From an uncultured Verrucomicrobia subdivision 3 bacterium (GTDB lineage: Bacteria; Verrucomicrobiota; Verrucomicrobiia; Limisphaerales; UBA11358), in NCBI GenBank assembly GCA_903944085.1, contig CAJAQO010000130.1, positions 1 to 34,703 of the forward strand: a stretch of 34,703 bases of DNA. Reading direction: 5' to 3'. Position numbers and translations under genes: made by a program. The notes below the pieces were generated by a model. That model was given only the letters and a program-made list of their open reading frames with translations. It had not been told where the DNA came from and made no database searches. Of this stretch, positions 18,126 through 34,703 are shown in pieces. Position 1 is the first letter of the stretch, and every line of letters begins with the position of its first letter.

Positions 18126-18201
18126 TGGTGGGTTGGCGGGGACTCGAACCCCGGACCAATGCCTTAAAAGGGCACTGCTCTACCAACTGAGCTACCAACC
18201 C
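18126..18201 (-). tRNA. tRNA-Lys (anticodon UUU)
   Basis: Read on the minus strand from 18201: acceptor GGGTTGG, D-arm GCTC-AGTTGGTA-GAGC, anticodon stem GTGCC/GGCAT with loop CTTTTAA (anticodon TTT), T-arm CGGGG-TTCGAGT-CCCCG, acceptor CCAACCC, discriminator A. The 3' CCA is encoded (18126-18128). All stems pair, the G-T at the anticodon stem base being the only wobble. It is the only tRNA seen in the window. Confidence 0.97.
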
Positions 18202-19594: not shown

Positions 19595-21085
19595 TCAACG
19601 GTTTTTCAAAACAGCTAAATCGCGCAAGATTTGAAACACATCGGTTGATTCGATCTGGGGCGCGTTCAACAATTCCGGCTGGCTGGTGATGAACACCGGC
19701 CAGTCTTTTTTTTTCGCCGGGCGCTGGCCATGCGAGCCTTTCACCAGCGTCGCGTCGAGCGGAATCACATCCAGCAGCATCCGGAAGCCGAGCTTTTTTT
19801 GCAGCAGCCGCCAGGCGATTTTCAGTTTCGGCCGCGGAATTTCAGGGTCGAGAAACAATTCCACCGGGTCGTAGCCCGGCTTGCGATGAATGTCCACGGT
19901 GCGCGCAAAATCCGGCGCGCGTGAATCATCCAGCCAGTAATAATAAGTGAACCACGCATTTTCCGCCGCCACCGCCACCAAATCGCCCGCGCGCGAATGC
20001 GCGATGCCCGCCGCGATTTTCTCCGGCTGGCCCAAAACTTTTTCCACGCCGGGAATTGTTTCCAGCACGGCGCGCACGGAATTTTCCAGCGACCGGTCGT
20101 TCAAATAAATGTGCGCCACCTGATGATCCGCCACGGCAAAAACCCGGCTCGCGCCGGCGTCGAGAATTTCCAAGCCCAGTTCGTCCTTCACCGTCAGCCA
20201 GCCGCGCGCACGGAAAATCCGGTTGAGATGCACCGGCGTGTCCACGTTGGTGATGCCGTATTCGGAAAGCAAAACCACCGGCACGCCGCGCTGGCCAAAA
20301 AAATCAATCAAATCGCCGGCGATGGCGTCAATTTCGCGCAGGTCGCGGAAAATTTTTGGATTCAACCCGCCGCCGCGAAGCGGCGCGGAATCATTTCCGC
20401 TTTCCGCTTTCCGCTTTCCGCTTTGTTCAAACGGCCCGTGCCGCTGCAAGTTGTAATCCAAATGCGGCAGGTAAATTAAATTCAGCCGCGGCGAAAATTT
20501 GTTTTCAATCCACTTCGCCGATTCGGCAATCCAGCGCGAGGCGCAATCAGCGTTGCCACGCGGCGAATCCATTCCCGCCGCCGGCCCCCAAAAGCCGAAG
20601 AACGGAAATTCGCCCAGATCCTTTTTGATTTCTTCGCGGATCGCATACGGCCACGAATAAATGTCGAAAACTTTCCCGCCGTCGGCGCGGTAAATCGGGC
20701 GCGGCGTGAGCGCGTAATCCACGCTCGCATACATATTGAACCACCAGAAACAATTGGCGATTGAAACTTCCGCTTTCCGCTTTCCGCTTTCCGCTTTTTC
20801 CCGCAGCGCGTCCCAGATTTTTCGGCCCTGGACGATGTGGTTGGACTGTTTCCAAAATTGCACTTCGGCCAGCTCGCGGTTGAACCAGCCGTTGCCGACG
20901 ATGCCGTGCTGCGCCGGGAGTTTGCCGGTGAGATAATTCGACTGCGCGGTGCAGGTGACGGCGGGAAAAGCCGGCGCGATGTGCGCGAGCGCGCCGCGCT
21001 GGCGGAACGCGGCGAGGCGCGGCGTCTGTTCGCCGATGAGCGCCTCGGTGAGGCCGACGACATTGATGACGGCGAGCCGGTTCAT
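19595..21085 (-). CDS. eboF: EboF-like alkaline phosphatase/phosphodiesterase family protein
   Basis: 496 residues, type I phosphodiesterase / nucleotide-pyrophosphatase superfamily. The N-terminus (LAVINVVGLTEALIGEQTPRL) has the metal-site Asp replaced by Asn, as I recall for EboF proteins; the Thr of FPAVTCTAQSNYLTG is at the nucleophile place. Other blocks: QHGIVGNGWFNR, CFWWFNMYASVDYALTPRPIY, YLPHLDYNLQRHGP and LSEYGITNV. It overlaps eboD by four bases. The ebo cluster is linked with moving cytosolic metabolites to the periplasm. Oddity: two in-frame heptamer arrays encode KAESGKRKAE (about 97-106) and SGKRKAESG (about 222-230), each where relatives have a shorter loop, so the protein is longer than usual. 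Confidence 0.85.
   Translation of the reverse strand: MNRLAVINVVGLTEALIGEQTPRLAAFRQRGALAHIAPAFPAVTCTAQSNYLTGKLPAQHGIVGNGWFNRELAEVQFWKQSNHIVQGRKIWDALREKAESGKRKAEVSIANCFWWFNMYASVDYALTPRPIYRADGGKVFDIYSWPYAIREEIKKDLGEFPFFGFWGPAAGMDSPRGNADCASRWIAESAKWIENKFSPRLNLIYLPHLDYNLQRHGPFEQSGKRKAESGNDSAPLRGGGLNPKIFRDLREIDAIAGDLIDFFGQRGVPVVLLSEYGITNVDTPVHLNRIFRARGWLTVKDELGLEILDAGASRVFAVADHQVAHIYLNDRSLENSVRAVLETIPGVEKVLGQPEKIAAGIAHSRAGDLVAVAAENAWFTYYYWLDDSRAPDFARTVDIHRKPGYDPVELFLDPEIPRPKLKIAWRLLQKKLGFRMLLDVIPLDATLVKGSHGQRPAKKKDWPVFITSQPELLNAPQIESTDVFQILRDLAVLKNR
20371..20385. repeat. GC hairpin next to a heptamer array in eboF
   Basis: CGCCGC (20371-20376), GAA, GCGGCG (20380-20385): a perfect 6-bp stem with a 3-base loop, 8 bases from the array at 20394. 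It encodes the SAPLRGGG part of the insertion, so hairpin and array may have arrived together. Confidence 0.55.
20394..20424. repeat. 31-bp heptamer array (TTTCCGC x4 + TTT) inside eboF
   Basis: Four exact TTTCCGC units followed by TTT. It lies within the eboF reading frame and is translated (minus strand) as QSGKRKAESG. The insertion point follows YLPHLDYNLQRHGP, where related proteins go straight on to the R-LREIDA helix. Confidence 0.9.
20767..20797. repeat. Second 31-bp heptamer array (TTTCCGC) inside eboF
   Basis: One CTTCCGC (one mismatch), three exact TTTCCGC units and TTT, again 31 bases. Translated as EKAESGKRKAE between WDALR and the conserved NCFWWFNMY block. It is 343 bases from the first array and in the same orientation. 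Confidence 0.88.
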
Positions 21086-27666: not shown

Positions 27667-27764
27667 ATAATGAATGATGAAAGAAGAAACGGCCAGCGCG
27701 GAAGGCCGGGATTTTTACTGCGCGATGCCAGTTGACTTCTTCATTCATCATTCTTCATTCTACC
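27667..27764. repeat. Diverged inverted pair of an ATGAATGATGAAGAA-type repeat
   Basis: ATAATGAATGATGAAAGAAG (27667-27686) is answered on the opposite strand at 27737-27762 by a TTCTTCATTCATCATTCTTC block. The two arms are related but not exact. They occupy the divergent spacer between the RluA-type gene (-) and the membrane-TPR gene (+), and account for the similar HHS-F strings in the upstream open extension of both frames. A purer copy lies downstream of the TPR gene at 29635-29697. Confidence 0.7.
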
Positions 27765-27772
27765 TTGGAACA

Positions 27773-29623
27773 ATGCGCCGCTCTTGGATCATCGCCCTGC
27801 TGCTCGCCGCCGTGACGCTGGTGCTTTACTGGCCGGTGCGGTCATTTGATCTGATTTATTTCGACGATCCGCTGCTGTTGACCGAATGCCCGGAGGTGCA
27901 AGCCGGATTAACGTGGGCGAGCATAAAATGGGCCTTCACCAGCGTGGTCATCGCCAACTGGCAGCCGGTGACAAACCTGTCGTTTCTCGCGGTGGCGCAA
28001 TTTTTCGGCAACGCGCCCGGCGCGCATCATCTGGCGAACGCGCTGATCCACGCGGCCAACGCCGCCCTGCTTTTCCTGCTGCTGTGGCAGCTCACAAAAT
28101 CAACGTGGCGCAGCGCGGCGGCGGCGGCGGTTTTTGCGTGGCACCCGCTGCGCGTGGAATCCGTGGCCTGGATCGCGGAGCGCAAGGACGTGCTGTGCGG
28201 GTTTTTCTTTTTGCTCGCGCTGCTGTTTTACGGAAAGTTTGCGGGCGAGTCCAAAGTCCAAAGTCCAAAGTCCAAAGTCTTTTTCGGCGCGAGCCTGTTG
28301 GCGTTTGCGCTGGCGCTATTGAGCAAGCCGATGGCCGTGACGCTGCCGTTCGTGCTGCTGCTGCTGGATGTTTGGCCGCTCGGCAGAATTTCAAACTGCA
28401 AATTTCCAATTGCAAATTTCAAGCCGCTGCTCGCGGAAAAAATCCCCTTCTTCGCGCTGATGCTCGTCTTTTGCGCGGTGACGTATTGCGTCCAGCATGA
28501 TTCCGCAGCGATGACGCCGTGGGAAAAACTCGGCCTCGCGCCGCGCGCGGCGAATGCCGTCTCCAGTTACCTCGCCTATCCAGCGCAGCTTTTCTGGCCG
28601 GCCAATCTCGCGGCGATTTATCCCTTTCCGAAAAGCTATGACGTGACGCGGACAGTTTTGCAGGCCGGCTTGCTGCTCGCCATCACCATCGGCTGCCTCG
28701 CGCAATTCTCGCGCCGGCCGTGGCTCGCGGTCGGCTGGTGCTGGTATCTCGGCACGGCGCTGCCCATCATCGGCCTCGTGCAAGTCGGCGAGCAAGCGAT
28801 GGCCGACCGCTACACTTATCTGCCGCTGATCGGCCCGATCGTCGCGCTCGTGTGGACGGCGGCGGAATTTTTTCCGCTAGGGCGCGGCGCAAAAACCGGC
28901 GTCATCGCCGTTTCGGCATTATTTTTGTCCGGCCTCATAATTTTGTCCGAACGGCAGTTGCAGTTCTGGCGGAACACCATCGCGCTGTTTGAACACAATG
29001 TCGCCGTGACGCCAGCCAATGCCTCCGCGCATTTCACGCTGGGCCTCGGCTTTGAACATGCCGGCGACACCAACCGCGCGCTCGTCTGCTATCGCACAGC
29101 CAAAAGCATCGAACCCCAGAATTTTCAAAACCGCCGCCGCCTCGCTAGTCTGCTGGGCCAGCAAGGACAGTTCGCCGCCGCCGCCGCCGAATACGAGTCG
29201 CTCCTCGCGGACGAACCCACCGAGTATTTGGATCATCTGGGGCTGGCGGGCTTGCTCGCCGCGCAAGGTCGCGCGGACGAATCCCTTGTGCAGCTTAACG
29301 AAACCGTGCGGCTGAATCCCGACTGCGCCGAGGCGCTGAACAATCTGGCCTGGGCACTCGCCACCAGCCCGCGCGCCGACGTCCGCGACGGACCGCGCGC
29401 CGTCCTGCTCGCACAACACGCCTGCGAACTGACCCGGTTTCGCAAAACCATTTTCATCGGCACGCTCGCGGCGGCGCAGGCCGAGGCGGGAAAATTTGAC
29501 GACGCGCTGGCCACGGCCCAAACGGCCTGCAAGCTGGCAAATCAAAACGGCGAAACAAATTTGCTCCAGCGCAATCAGGAATTGCTCGAACGCTACCGCC
29601 AGCACCAAGCCGTCAGGGAATAA
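27773..29623 (+). CDS. Polytopic membrane protein with C-terminal TPR repeats (TMTC-like)
   Basis: 616 residues. The N-terminal 420 residues carry about ten hydrophobic segments with TMTC/GT-C-like signatures: FDLIYFDDP near 25-33 (double acidic, as in polyprenyl-linked sugar transferases), HPLRVESVAWIAERKDVLCGFFFLLALL (124-151), LSKPMAVTLPFVLLLLDVWPLGR (183-205) and DRYTYLPLIG. The last 190 residues are tetratricopeptide repeats (ASAHFTLGLGFEHAGDTNRALVCYRTA and following). It may be a lipid-linked-sugar transferase, but this is inference. Two loops hold repeat-derived insertions: ESKVQSPKSKV (159-169) and ISNCKFPIANFK (206-217), both between membrane segments. ATG 27773 is chosen; the extension to 27674 is repeat-derived. 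Confidence 0.88.
   Translation: MRRSWIIALLLAAVTLVLYWPVRSFDLIYFDDPLLLTECPEVQAGLTWASIKWAFTSVVIANWQPVTNLSFLAVAQFFGNAPGAHHLANALIHAANAALLFLLLWQLTKSTWRSAAAAAVFAWHPLRVESVAWIAERKDVLCGFFFLLALLFYGKFAGESKVQSPKSKVFFGASLLAFALALLSKPMAVTLPFVLLLLDVWPLGRISNCKFPIANFKPLLAEKIPFFALMLVFCAVTYCVQHDSAAMTPWEKLGLAPRAANAVSSYLAYPAQLFWPANLAAIYPFPKSYDVTRTVLQAGLLLAITIGCLAQFSRRPWLAVGWCWYLGTALPIIGLVQVGEQAMADRYTYLPLIGPIVALVWTAAEFFPLGRGAKTGVIAVSALFLSGLIILSERQLQFWRNTIALFEHNVAVTPANASAHFTLGLGFEHAGDTNRALVCYRTAKSIEPQNFQNRRRLASLLGQQGQFAAAAAEYESLLADEPTEYLDHLGLAGLLAAQGRADESLVQLNETVRLNPDCAEALNNLAWALATSPRADVRDGPRAVLLAQHACELTRFRKTIFIGTLAAAQAEAGKFDDALATAQTACKLANQNGETNLLQRNQELLERYRQHQAVRE
28249..28279. repeat. 31-bp heptamer array (GTCCAAA x4 + GTC) inside the TPR gene
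   Basis: Four exact GTCCAAA units plus GTC, in frame, translated as SKVQSPKSKV in a loop between two membrane segments. Its length, 4 x 7 + 3, equals that of both arrays in eboF, although the heptamer sequence is different. Confidence 0.92.
28388..28423. repeat. AATTTCAAACTGCAAATTTC-type repeat inside the TPR gene
   Basis: Contains GCAAATTTC twice (28398-28406 and 28412-28420) and encodes ISNCKFPIANFK after the conserved WPLGR. Its first 19 bases resemble 30485-30503 in the purA-uppS spacer (about 16 of 19 identical), so it seems to be a dispersed family. Confidence 0.65.
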
Positions 29624-29634
29624 GGAATAATTTT

Positions 29635-29697
29635 GAATGAAGAATGAAGCAACAATTTATCCAAGCGCCGGGCAGGATATTTCTTCATTCTTCATTC
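29635..29697. repeat. Perfect 15-bp inverted pair GAATGAAGAATGAAG
   Basis: GAATGAAGAATGAAG (29635-29649) and CTTCATTCTTCATTC (29683-29697) are exact reverse complements separated by 33 bases. It lies in the 92-base spacer between the convergent TPR gene (+) and uppS (-). It might also act as a terminator for both, but it lacks a GC-rich stem. Same family as 27667-27764. Confidence 0.88.
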
Positions 29698-29715
29698 TGC
29701 CTTCTTCATTTCCCG

Positions 29716-31969: not shown

Positions 31970-32596
31970 TCACTGCCGGTCTTCGGCAATGGCGTTTACC
32001 CGGGCCGAGGCGGTTTTTGATTCCATGACCAGCGCCTTAAAGTGCCAGTCGCCATCCGGTTCGAGAATCGGTTGATAATCTGTAGCCTTACCCACGGCGG
32101 TGTCGTTAGTGTCGAAAAGTCCGAACTCAACCTTCACGCCGAAACGCTGGCGGCGGCTCAGATTCCGGATTTTCCCGGTCACATAAACCAGCGAGCTGCC
32201 CGGTGTTTTTTCCAATTTGACGGCCGAAATGGCAAAATCATTCGTGCGCTGCTCGGCGGTCAGTTTGGCTGGAAGCACTGATGAAACGACTGGAATGGCT
32301 GAAGTCTTGGCCAAGGCTACCGGGGCGCTGTTCTTTTCCGAGATCACACCGCGATCAAATTTTCTTCGCAAGTTCAAGACCGCCGCCAAGCCGATCAAAA
32401 GAACCAGCACGACTGCCACCAGCGCCAGCTTTTTCCGACGCGAATCGCTAACGCGGTTGGCCAAAACCGGTGCGGCCAGCTCCGTCGGCTGGCCGCAATG
32501 CGGGCAGGCGATGGTTTCGCCGGCGGCAGCAGCAGGGAATTCGAGATGGCCGCCGCACTGGCGGCACGCACTCTTCACAAAATTGTTGGTGGACAT
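31970..32596 (-). CDS. Zinc-ribbon single-pass membrane protein
   Basis: 208 residues. Residues 11-34 form a zinc ribbon (CRQCGGHLEFPAAAAGETIACPHCG). A transmembrane helix follows at about 56-75 (KLALVAVVLVLLIGLAAVL). The exported part (about 110-205) looks like a beta-sandwich with VYVTGKIRNLSRRQRFGVKVEFGLFDTNDTAVG, the FxLYD/DUF3426-like pattern of proteins that report a conserved change in loop structure. The topology suggests the ribbon stays in the cytoplasm. A terminator follows. It is divergent from the DUF1501 gene with 74 bases between. Function unknown. Confidence 0.83.
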   Translation of the reverse strand: MSTNNFVKSACRQCGGHLEFPAAAAGETIACPHCGQPTELAAPVLANRVSDSRRKKLALVAVVLVLLIGLAAVLNLRRKFDRGVISEKNSAPVALAKTSAIPVVSSVLPAKLTAEQRTNDFAISAVKLEKTPGSSLVYVTGKIRNLSRRQRFGVKVEFGLFDTNDTAVGKATDYQPILEPDGDWHFKALVMESKTASARVNAIAEDRQ

Positions 32597-32670
32597 TTAT
32601 TGGCACCGATGCGACAAAATATGCGAAACCAATAGCTCGCCTTAATCGTCATATCAATGAAAGTAAAGTT

Positions 32671-34095
32671 ATGAGCCAGGACAACAATTACAAGCAGGAA
32701 CATTCCGCGCGGATGGAGGATCATTTTTTGACGCGCCGCCAGTTTCTCCAGCGCGCCGGCATGGGCTTTGGCGCGTTGAGCCTGGCGGCCATGTTTGGCA
32801 ACGAGCTTTTGCTGCCGGCGGCCGGCGCGATGGAAGCCGAGGCGACGCTGCTGCCAAAAACACCGCCGTTGCCGGCAAAAGCAAAACACGTCGTCCATAT
32901 TTTTGCGCAAGGTGCGCCGTCGCATGTGGACACCTGGGATCCCAAACCGGCGCTGAATAAAATGGACGGCCAGGAAATCCCCGGCCAAAACGGCGTGGCC
33001 ATGGCGTCGCCGTTCAAGTTTGCCAAAAAAGGAAAATCCGGCATCGAGGTCAGCGAGGTATTTCCGCAGATCGGCGAACTGGTGGATGACTTGTGCGTGG
33101 TCCGGTCAATGTATACCGACATTCCGGCGCACGAAGTGGCGACGATCATGATGAACACCGGTTCGCGCCTCGTGCGGCCGAGCGTCGGCTCGTGGGTGCT
33201 TTACGGACTCGGCTCGGAAAATCAAAACATGCCGGGATTTATTTCGCTGCGACCGGGCGGCGCGCCGCCGGGCGGCACGGCGAACTGGCAGTCGGCTTTT
33301 TTGCCCGGGCTTTATCAGGGCGTGAGCATCAACACGAAAGTTCCCACGCTGAACCAGTTGATTGAAAACATCCGCAATCCGGTCACGCCACTGAACGAAC
33401 AGCGGCGGCAACTGGATTTGGTTCACAAGTTGAACGAATTGCACAGCCAGAATCTGCAAAAAGACGCGCAGCTCGAATCGCGGCTGGAGGCGTTTGAAAT
33501 GGCGTTCAAAATGCAGACGGAGGCGACGGATGCATTTGATTTGAACAAGGAGCCGCAAAGCATCCGCGAAATGTATGGCCGCAGCGCGCAGGGAAATCAG
33601 ATGCTGATCGCGCGGCGGCTCATCGAGCGCGGCGTGCGGTTCGTGCAGGTCTGGGCCGGCGGCTGGGATCATCATCAGGATTTGGAGGAGCGCCTGCCAG
33701 AGCGCGCGAAGGACATTGACCAGCCGCTCGCGGCGTTCATCAAGGATTTGAAATCGCGCGGGCTGTTTGACGAAACGCTCATTGTCTGGGGCGGCGAATT
33801 CGGCCGCAAGCCGACGCGCGACCGCAACGGCGGCGACAATCCGGGTCGCGACCATAATTCCAAAGCCTTCACCACCGTGCTTGCCGGCGGCGGCGTGCGC
33901 GGCGGCATGACTTACGGCAAGACGGATGAATTCGGCGCGGCGGCCATCGAGGACAAGGTGCACGTCCACGATTTGCACGCGACGATTCTCGCGCTGCTGG
34001 GCTTCGACCATAAAAAGTTGACTTACCGCTACAACGGCCGTGATTTCCGGCTGACGGAAACCAGCGGGGAAATTGTCAAAGCTGTCTTCGCATGA
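32671..34095 (+). CDS. Tat-exported DUF1501 protein
   Basis: 474 residues of the DUF1501 family, related to the alkaline phosphatase / sulfatase superfamily. A Tat signal (TRRQFLQRAGMGFGALSLAAMFG, RR about 22-23) is followed by HVVHIFAQGAPSHVDTWDPKP and IVWGGEFGRKPTRDRNGGDNPGRDHNSKAFTTVLAGGGVRGG, the metal-site blocks. ATG 32671 is chosen; the upstream extension to 32470 overlaps the divergent gene and has no export signal. In Verrucomicrobiota and Planctomycetota such genes typically sit beside a PSCyt1/DUF1549/DUF1553 gene, as here. Enzymatic activity has not, as far as I know, been shown. Confidence 0.95.
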   Translation: MSQDNNYKQEHSARMEDHFLTRRQFLQRAGMGFGALSLAAMFGNELLLPAAGAMEAEATLLPKTPPLPAKAKHVVHIFAQGAPSHVDTWDPKPALNKMDGQEIPGQNGVAMASPFKFAKKGKSGIEVSEVFPQIGELVDDLCVVRSMYTDIPAHEVATIMMNTGSRLVRPSVGSWVLYGLGSENQNMPGFISLRPGGAPPGGTANWQSAFLPGLYQGVSINTKVPTLNQLIENIRNPVTPLNEQRRQLDLVHKLNELHSQNLQKDAQLESRLEAFEMAFKMQTEATDAFDLNKEPQSIREMYGRSAQGNQMLIARRLIERGVRFVQVWAGGWDHHQDLEERLPERAKDIDQPLAAFIKDLKSRGLFDETLIVWGGEFGRKPTRDRNGGDNPGRDHNSKAFTTVLAGGGVRGGMTYGKTDEFGAAAIEDKVHVHDLHATILALLGFDHKKLTYRYNGRDFRLTETSGEIVKAVFA

Positions 34096-34100
34096 AAAAT

Positions 34101-34232
34101 TTTCACGCAAAGACGCAAAGACGCGAAGAAAAAAACTCAAGCAAGCGCAAGCTTGCGCCGCGCCATTTCGTGGACGCTTATTTTCATCCGGTTTTACCTT
34201 TCATCTTTGCGCCTTTGCGCCTTTGCGTGAAA
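34101..34232. repeat. Inverted pair of octamer arrays (CGCAAAGA type)
   Basis: TTTCACGCAAAG-ACGCAAAG-ACGCGAAG (34101-34128) is the reverse complement, at 25 of 28 positions, of the array at 34205-34232. The 76-base spacer holds a perfect 14-base palindrome GCGCAAGCTTGCGC (34145-34158). It lies between the DUF1501 and PSCyt1 genes, and the right arm contains the GTG (34227-34229) that best starts the latter. Confidence 0.9.
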
Positions 34233-34703
34233 CTTCGGATTCTTGTTTTTTTGTTCAGCGCATTCATTTCGCACAACGCGTTCGCCGCCGAGCCAACCCC
34301 GGCACAACTGGATTTTTTTGAAAATAAAATCCGGCCGATTCTCGCCGACCGCTGCTACAAATGTCACAGCACCTTCGCGGAACGCATCAAAGGCGGGCTG
34401 CTGCTTGACAGTCGCGAGGCTTTGCTGAAAGGCGGTGACACCGGCAAGGCGATTGTGCCGGGCGATCCCGAAGGAAGTTTGCTCATCAAAGCCATTCGTT
34501 ACACTGATCCTGATTTGCAAATGCCCAAGGACAAAAAGCTCGATGACGACCAGATCGCAGATTTGACGGCGTGGGTGAAAATGGGCGCGCCCGATCCGCG
34601 CAGCGCCACCGCCGAGCAAAAAAAATATTCCGACAACAAAACGAACCACTGGGCCTGGCAGCCGGTCAAGCGCCAGGCGGTTCCCGACGTGAGCAATCCC
34701 GAC
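34227..34703 (+). CDS. PSCyt1-type cytochrome c domain protein (N-terminal part)
   Basis: Cut by the window end; 159 codons seen. From GTG 34227 a clean Sec signal peptide (KLRILVFLFSAFISHNAFA, cleavage AFA-AE) leads to the planctomycete cytochrome C domain: RPILADRCYKCHS (heme CxxCH at about 41-45), KGGLLLDSREALLKGGDTGKAIVPGDPEGSLLIKAIRY, LQMPKDKKL (axial Met), and DLTAWVKMGAPDPR. In the family DUF1549 and DUF1553 domains follow, beyond the window. The frame is also open to ATG 34092, which overlaps the stop of the DUF1501 gene (ATGA). Those 45 extra residues are mostly repeat-encoded (for example HAKTQRREEK), so I prefer GTG, but coupling may use the ATG. Confidence 0.88.
   Translation, partial: MKLRILVFLFSAFISHNAFAAEPTPAQLDFFENKIRPILADRCYKCHSTFAERIKGGLLLDSREALLKGGDTGKAIVPGDPEGSLLIKAIRYTDPDLQMPKDKKLDDDQIADLTAWVKMGAPDPRSATAEQKKYSDNKTNHWAWQPVKRQAVPDVSNPD

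Follow-up and report, generated by a model that had tools for sequence, protein, structure and literature searches.

A widespread dispersed palindrome inserted in frame where an overlapping cytochrome gene begins

We find that a palindrome of CGCAAAGN octamers, at 34101-34232, sits at the junction of a DUF1501 gene and a PSCyt1 (planctomycete-type cytochrome c) gene, near the contig end of the window, by which we mean the whole stretch of 34,703 nucleotides that was analysed. Sequence comparison establishes a dispersed family, empty sites in orthologues, insertion in frame and in-frame copies in other genes. At the junction, a widespread dispersed palindrome has entered the beginning of an overlapping gene without shifting its frame, and there it is likely either to extend a signal peptide that is discarded or to provide a new start codon. 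The features of the junction are as follows.

32470-34095, + strand: DUF1501 open reading frame, GTG start as listed, stop TGA at 34093-34095 (Pfam PF07394, E 2.3e-145)
34092-34703, + strand: PSCyt1 gene, from the ATG overlapping the DUF1501 stop (Pfam PF07635, E 2.9e-17); incomplete, as the contig end at 34703 truncates its 3′ part
34092-34094, + strand: ATG of the ATGA overlap, the favored start; the counterpart ATG is the apparent start in eight repeat-free orthologues of the same genus
34098-34232, no strand: net insertion relative to the empty site, 135 bp or 45 codons, from stop-to-CxxCH lengths and the alignment with genome G354
34101-34232, no strand: palindromic octamer element, with outer ends as usual in the family (T[TC]TCA ... 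TGA[AG]A)
34101-34128, + strand: left arm, TTTCA followed by the octamers CGCAAAG, CGCAAAG and CGCGAAG
34129-34204, no strand: spacer of 76 bp, hardly or not at all related to those of five further exact paired copies in this genome
34205-34232, - strand: right arm, an inverted array ending in GCGTGAAA; read on the + strand as FAPLRLCVK
34170-34172, + strand: alternative GTG start, in frame within the spacer, from frame reading
34215-34217, + strand: alternative TTG start, in frame within the right arm, from frame reading
34227-34229, + strand: alternative GTG start at the element terminus, aligned with the ancestral ATG and inside the predicted RNA stem
34227-34286, + strand: signal-peptide-like segment (V/M)KLRILVFLFSAFISHNAFA, from frame reading and orthologous N-termini, with the cleavage site placed by eye

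The original prediction described the two arms as near-perfect reverse complements of an 8-base array, and they are indeed reverse complements at 25 of 28 positions. An inverted-repeat search extended them to 37-nt arms (34098-34134 and 34199-34235, 84% complementarity), and TRF delimited octamer arrays at 34105-34129 and 34205-34227. With up to three mismatches, ACGCAAAGACGCAAAG has five matches in the window, four of them within the element, against 0.76 expected, and none of 100 shuffles gave five. The predicted RNA fold of 34080-34250 has an energy of -59.7 kcal/mol (z -3.99), and its stem, which consists of 27 arm pairs, includes the GUGAAA of 34227. At gathering thresholds, Rfam found nothing in the window except a tRNA at 18129-18201, and a terminator search on the + strand at the element gave a single weak 5-pair match, at the spacer. 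The junction palindrome is real and beyond chance. That it should be chance, low complexity or an assembly artefact has a negligible probability: the window is one among 335 contigs and the element ends 471 bases short of the contig end, but the genome holds 59 copies of the motif against none for a reversed control, and the motif is shared with other genomes of the genus and with records from many phyla. The window also carries tandem heptamer arrays of varied sequence (20394-20424, 20768-20797, 27737-27761, 28248-28279, 28387-28422 and 29681-29710; units TTTCCGC, TTCCGCT, TTCTTCA, AGTCCAA and AATTTCA), which resemble the heptamer repeats of cyanobacteria (STRR).

The 59 copies of CGCAAAGNCGCAAAG in this 5.79-Mb genome (28 + 31) form 29 sites, six of which overlap a gene predicted by a home-made gene caller, two of them deep inside. 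The motif occurs in 42 of 49 genomes of the genus, with its highest count in the genome of the window; the reversed control gave 16 matches in total, in 10 of the 49, and exceeds the real count in G007 and G351. Among 288 genomes sampled from the phylum, 21 hold the triple octamer, whose control matched in one genome only (G303, three matches against one real). In a search of one genome per species, the paired form was present in at least 113 stretches, a count without a shuffled control and with many metagenome bins among its sources, and the 80 titles listed include Verrucomicrobia, Acidobacteria, Bacteroidetes, Chlorobiota, Chloroflexi, Planctomycetes, Chlamydiae, several proteobacterial groups and Sorangium. 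Two Acidobacteria-group genomes, G360 and G361, have 741 and 714 matches against a control of 0; these counts, together with spacer subfamilies that recur there, indicate that the motif has been highly amplified. In another genome of the same class, a long tandem CGCAAAGC run (G312:C1:3776070-3776188) accounts for 16 overlapping triple matches counted, 13 of them listed. The 92 distinct paired copies have two to three exact units per arm, a spacer of 7-84 nt (median 24) and the outer flank T[TC]TCA. Spacers recur within some high-copy genomes, and those of six copies in the window's genome compare little better with one another (-9.8) than shuffles do (-12.1). A plasmid search with the element returned four weak records, the one with an annotated feature beneath the match being a Nostoc response regulator, and a plasmid search for the gene returned four records of distant PSCyt1 relatives.

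Orthologues of the PSCyt1 gene were sought in all 48 other genomes of the genus, and 11 had a close one (E of 2.4e-50 or lower; the next best genome is at 3.9e-16). We inspected all 11 junctions. Eight (G014, G034, G032, G008, G354, G357, G353 and G356) represent the empty site: the DUF1501 stop and the PSCyt1 start overlap as ATGA, there is no repeat, and CxxCH follows 122-131 nt past the stop. This distance is 257 nt in the window versus 122 nt in G014, G034, G354 and G357. The prediction that a dispersed repeat has entered a coupled gene junction is borne out by these empty sites and by the 59 genomic copies, and no repeat-free orthologue among the eight has the same 45-residue extension, which would have told against the prediction. 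The least similar orthologue, G027, has a spacer without repeat (154 nt), G019 a diverged octamer pair at the junction (242 nt), and G012 another tandem repeat there, in frame (203 nt). The G012 repeat (L049) is AGTCAGG-like, and the sister G032 has the empty ATGA overlap.

The nearest signal peptide, MKSRILVFLFSA of G354, aligns with the window from GTG 34227, VKLRILVFLFSA, and the corresponding nucleotides (MKSRILVFLFSAIISRGAFAAD and VKLRILVFLFSAFISHNAFAAE) are identical at 67 of 90 positions. From this alignment follows a net insertion of 135 bp, which is in frame and contains no stop; its removal gives MKLRILVFLF, where G354 has MKSRILVFLF. We dropped an earlier placement of the boundary, 132 bp after codon 3 (MKN|LRILVFLF), as the empty G354 gene gives 135 bp at codons 1-2. 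The exact breakpoints are ambiguous. The net insertion is flanked by ATGAAA (34092-34097) and GTGAAA (34227-34232), so that TGAAA, single in the empty G354 site, stands twice in the window, at 34093-34097 and 34228-34232; the consensus for the ends of the family is likewise TGA[AG]A. Either the target was duplicated or the element arrived with the end typical of it; whichever applies, the old start is left in frame and a GTG comes to stand at the ancestral start position, the element-terminal GTGAAA occupying the site of the relatives' ATGAAA. As predicted, the frame is open throughout from ATG 34092, which overlaps the TGA of 34093-34095, across the element. The further claim that the GTG of the right arm begins a signal peptide is a fair reading of the anatomy: KLRILVFLFSAFISHNAFA follows directly, and this GTG aligns with the G354 ATG.

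The original prediction offered a new start and an added N-terminus as alternatives. Both are possible, the extension being somewhat likelier. We lean toward translation from ATG 34092 with the repeat read as an N-terminal extension, a reading that seems to us slightly better than even. In this scheme, a dispersed octamer-array palindrome has inserted at codons 1-2 of the PSCyt1 gene overlapping the DUF1501 stop, ribosomes would still reinitiate at ATG 34092 via the ATGA overlap, the repeat would be translated as a 45-residue, mostly basic addition before the signal-peptide core, and signal peptidase would remove the addition and leave the mature cytochrome unchanged. We infer the coupling, the use of ATG 34092 and the removal together with the signal peptide.

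Four observations incline us to the added N-terminus. In the genus, each of the three junctions that bear a repeat (window, G019 and G012) is open and in phase from the junction ATG; when the spacer in the window is shuffled, 31% of draws stay open, a figure that does not yet include the one-in-three chance of a fitting length. In G019, where the first octamer, like that of the window, begins 14 nt from the ATG, GTA stands in place of the GTG, and by eye there is no good start between this position and the hydrophobic core, so that translation there must start before or within the repeat and part of the repeat must be coding. The other two are the in-frame HSP70 and MutY copies and the envC-like parallel described below. 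We also count for the extension that GTG 34227 is paired in the predicted 27-pair RNA stem and has no Shine-Dalgarno-like sequence upstream.

The main rival, to which we give a substantial but smaller chance, is a new start inside the element (GTG 34227, TTG 34215 or GTG 34170), with the rest of the element as an untranslated leader hairpin. The GTG AAA at 34227 coincides exactly with the ancestral start position, as its counterpart in the empty gene of G354 is ATG AAA (VKLRILVFLFSA versus MKSRILVFLFSA), and by manual count it lies 29 residues from FFE, the same as in G034, G014 and G354. The placement of the net insertion at codons 1-2 shifts a little weight from the extension to the new start. 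Each of the three start codons within the element would yield a conventional signal peptide, whereas about 47 residues ahead of the hydrophobic core, as translation from ATG 34092 requires, is unusual for one. A further in-frame TTG lies at 34251. By eye we see no Shine-Dalgarno-like sequence in the 20 nt 5′ of ATG 34092, GTG 34170, TTG 34215 or GTG 34227, which counts against the favored start as well. A weak promoter-like match (9/12) at 34073-34100 on the + strand, immediately 5′ of the element, means that a transcript may start inside the junction. The frame conservation, moreover, amounts to three junctions, and stop-free octamers are not rare: the octamer is without stop triplet on both strands, as are 3778 of 16384 (23%) seven-base cores. 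Against a new start inside the element, the open, in-phase frame at three out of three repeat-bearing junctions would be superfluous, G019 has the GTA, and GTG 34227, which lies 131 nt past the upstream stop, is taken up in the predicted stem.

It is very improbable that the insertion disabled the gene, so that the PSCyt1 protein is no longer exported. The n-region would be very long with a start at 34092, which speaks for such a loss, but the downstream frame is intact up to the contig end with the PSCyt1 domain present, and G019 and G012 retain open frames of 870 and 862 codons despite their inserts.

Starts at or inside such elements must occur elsewhere in the family, as follows from two of its other junctions. 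We followed frames outward from 173 element edges with enough sequence; 56 frames with 100 codons or more run out of the element, from which four were chosen (L095, L107, L135 and L164), while several others have an ordinary ATG past the arm. In L107 (peptidase S15) and L095, the stretch from the right arm to the hydrophobic core holds no ATG, GTG or TTG, which also favors the new start inside the window's element. The likely starts fall within the element in L135, for which Pfam gives no match, and in L164, which has cytochrome c / ethylbenzene dehydrogenase domains.

L095 is a Sulfuritalea record with one sub-threshold Pfam match; we take its gene to be envC-like, and the gene upstream is presumably gpmA. 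A search among 31 genomes around L095 found a match to the envC-like gene in 27; 20 loci were fetched and 16 examined, and 13 junctions were shown by motif. Seven of these 13 have a GTGA overlap, an N-terminus like MIPGRKLCVSAVCLAS and no element, and two (G359 and G364) have the octamer element in frame in the first codons, MIPRRKDAKTQRK...SLRLCVKALCLAS. The element is also absent from L256, L257, L258 and L260, which have cut or other N-termini. The spacers of G359 and G364 are 33 nt each and identical at just 13 of 33 positions; in G359, unlike G364, the end of the upstream gene appears by eye to be altered too. At the site of the element, relatives without it (L246-L255) have a short GACGC...GCGTC-type inverted repeat, and the element may possibly have grown from, or decayed to, this short palindrome. 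The envC-like junction is a parallel, in another phylum, to the PSCyt1 insertion.

In the genome of the window, octamers are also found in frame within an HSP70 and a MutY gene, that is, within conserved genes as copies of the Rickettsia palindromic elements (RPE) are. The HSP70 (DnaK-type) copy is read as ...KAEMAHAKPQSREAEKSLRLCAFACDAP... and adds 16 residues relative to E. coli DnaK (4b9q), and the MutY copy adds 23 relative to 6q0c. Orthologues of both genes were sought in twelve genomes of the genus. Octamers occupy the same HSP70 site in one of six close orthologues (G018) and are absent from the two more distant homologues compared. The octamer pair is absent from all 11 MutY orthologues compared, and the loop is minimal in G034 and G014. 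By eye, five MutY genes (L222, L224, L225, L226 and L228) carry differing repeat-like sequences in frame in the same loop, which looks like a permissive site for repeats. At L118 (5570-7297), one open frame, by eye a possible DNA methylase, seemingly contains two octamer elements in frame.

As to the placement of the family as a whole, the frame is open for at least 150 nt on both sides in 15 of 75 named paired copies versus 1063 of 1500 random positions. Thirteen of these 15 were translated (L100 and L107 were left out); most are by eye non-coding, and L118, L164 and L095 were used. Counting stops that face the element and close a frame of 300 nt or more, 15.2% of the 164 edges from 82 copies lie 8-16 nt from a stop versus 1.3% of random positions; as the random positions include coding DNA, this excess is partly intergenic bias, but even so edges are three to four times as dense at 8-16 nt as at 24-64 nt. 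We infer that the element prefers landing just behind stop codons, which would account for an overlapping gene being struck in its first codons. To our knowledge, no protein is known to bind the element here. We think it unlikely that the element is mainly regulatory or chromosome-organising, as the site of a DNA-bending protein or as an mRNA hairpin, with its coding phase incidental. The avoidance of coding DNA by most copies and the clustering of their edges near stop codons would fit such a role, and octamer pairs in Geobacter metallireducens have been proposed as global regulator sites, according to an excerpt of PMC2700814. On the other hand, the in-frame HSP70 and MutY copies, and the fact that copies are present in some species and absent from others, speak for a mobile repeat that is tolerated.

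The inserts of the window and G019 may reflect two insertions, or one with losses. One tree grouped the window with the empty G034 (83/90), other trees leave the order unresolved, and a constraint of window and G019 as sisters is mildly disfavored (AU p 0.042, 0.029, 0.048 and 0.031). This result and the pairs at shared sites in HSP70 and in the envC-like gene together suggest that the same sites may have been used repeatedly, the alternative being one old insertion with losses. More broadly, we entertain as a doubtful extrapolation that a single octamer-palindrome family in many phyla time and again gives rise to start codons and signal-peptide n-regions through repeated same-site insertion. 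The element would repeatedly insert just past stops, and at ATGA or GTGA overlaps would thereby land in the first codons of the next gene; the right arm would be read as a basic n-region, and the terminal TGAAA could rebuild a start codon at the old position. Mobility linked to a RAYT is unsupported: a REP repeat flanks its RAYT gene, and at the six Y1_Tnp matches in the genome, Y1 transposases alone being checked, octamer pairs are absent from the surroundings, with lone heptamers near two.

Several known systems resemble the element. Terminal inverted repeats are present, as the definition of a MITE (miniature inverted-repeat transposable element) requires, with the outer consensus T[TC]TCA-CGCAAAG. 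RPE are described in excerpts of PMC2229807 and PMC10969869 as small palindromic repeats that are intergenic and also in frame in conserved protein genes, where they are read as an inserted peptide; Wolbachia counterparts exist, judging from a reference title there. By this description the present element behaves alike, as an in-frame palindrome, and at 132-135 bp with 28-nt arms it is palindromic and within the RPE size of about 100-150 bp, but we do not file it as RPE. It differs in its arms, which are tandem CGCAAAGN octamers, and in the spread of its family over many phyla. In Geobacter metallireducens, the excerpt of PMC2700814 describes pairs of sites on opposite strands at variable distance, with four (class 1) or three (class 2) tandem octanucleotides of consensus GTTGCTYN or TCTCCGTS[Y], the first three classes being unique to that genome and interpreted as regulator sites. 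Opposed tandem octamer arrays and variable spacing are common to both, but the consensus here is CGCAAAGN. The Yersinia YPAL, a mobile palindrome, is fused to YPO1552 and forms part of a predicted signal peptide (excerpt of PMC2229807); there a 168-bp repeat is reported to have given rise to an exported protein that is new, while in the present case the cytochrome gene already existed and the repeat was added to it at a coupled junction. REP/RAYT repeats are likewise short, dispersed, mostly intergenic palindromes, though with a single tagged hairpin instead of octamer arrays. From its excerpt, PMC4060949 is a general survey, and in the open-access literature searched we found no paper on the CGCAAAGN family.

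In conclusion, the junction offers a clean comparison of filled and empty sites, in which a repeat entered an overlapping gene pair with neither gene broken, and which has a parallel in another phylum. Start-site annotation close to octamer repeats is unreliable. The comparison makes it testable whether ribosomes translate such repeats, and whether N-termini, start codons and signal peptides evolve by their capture.
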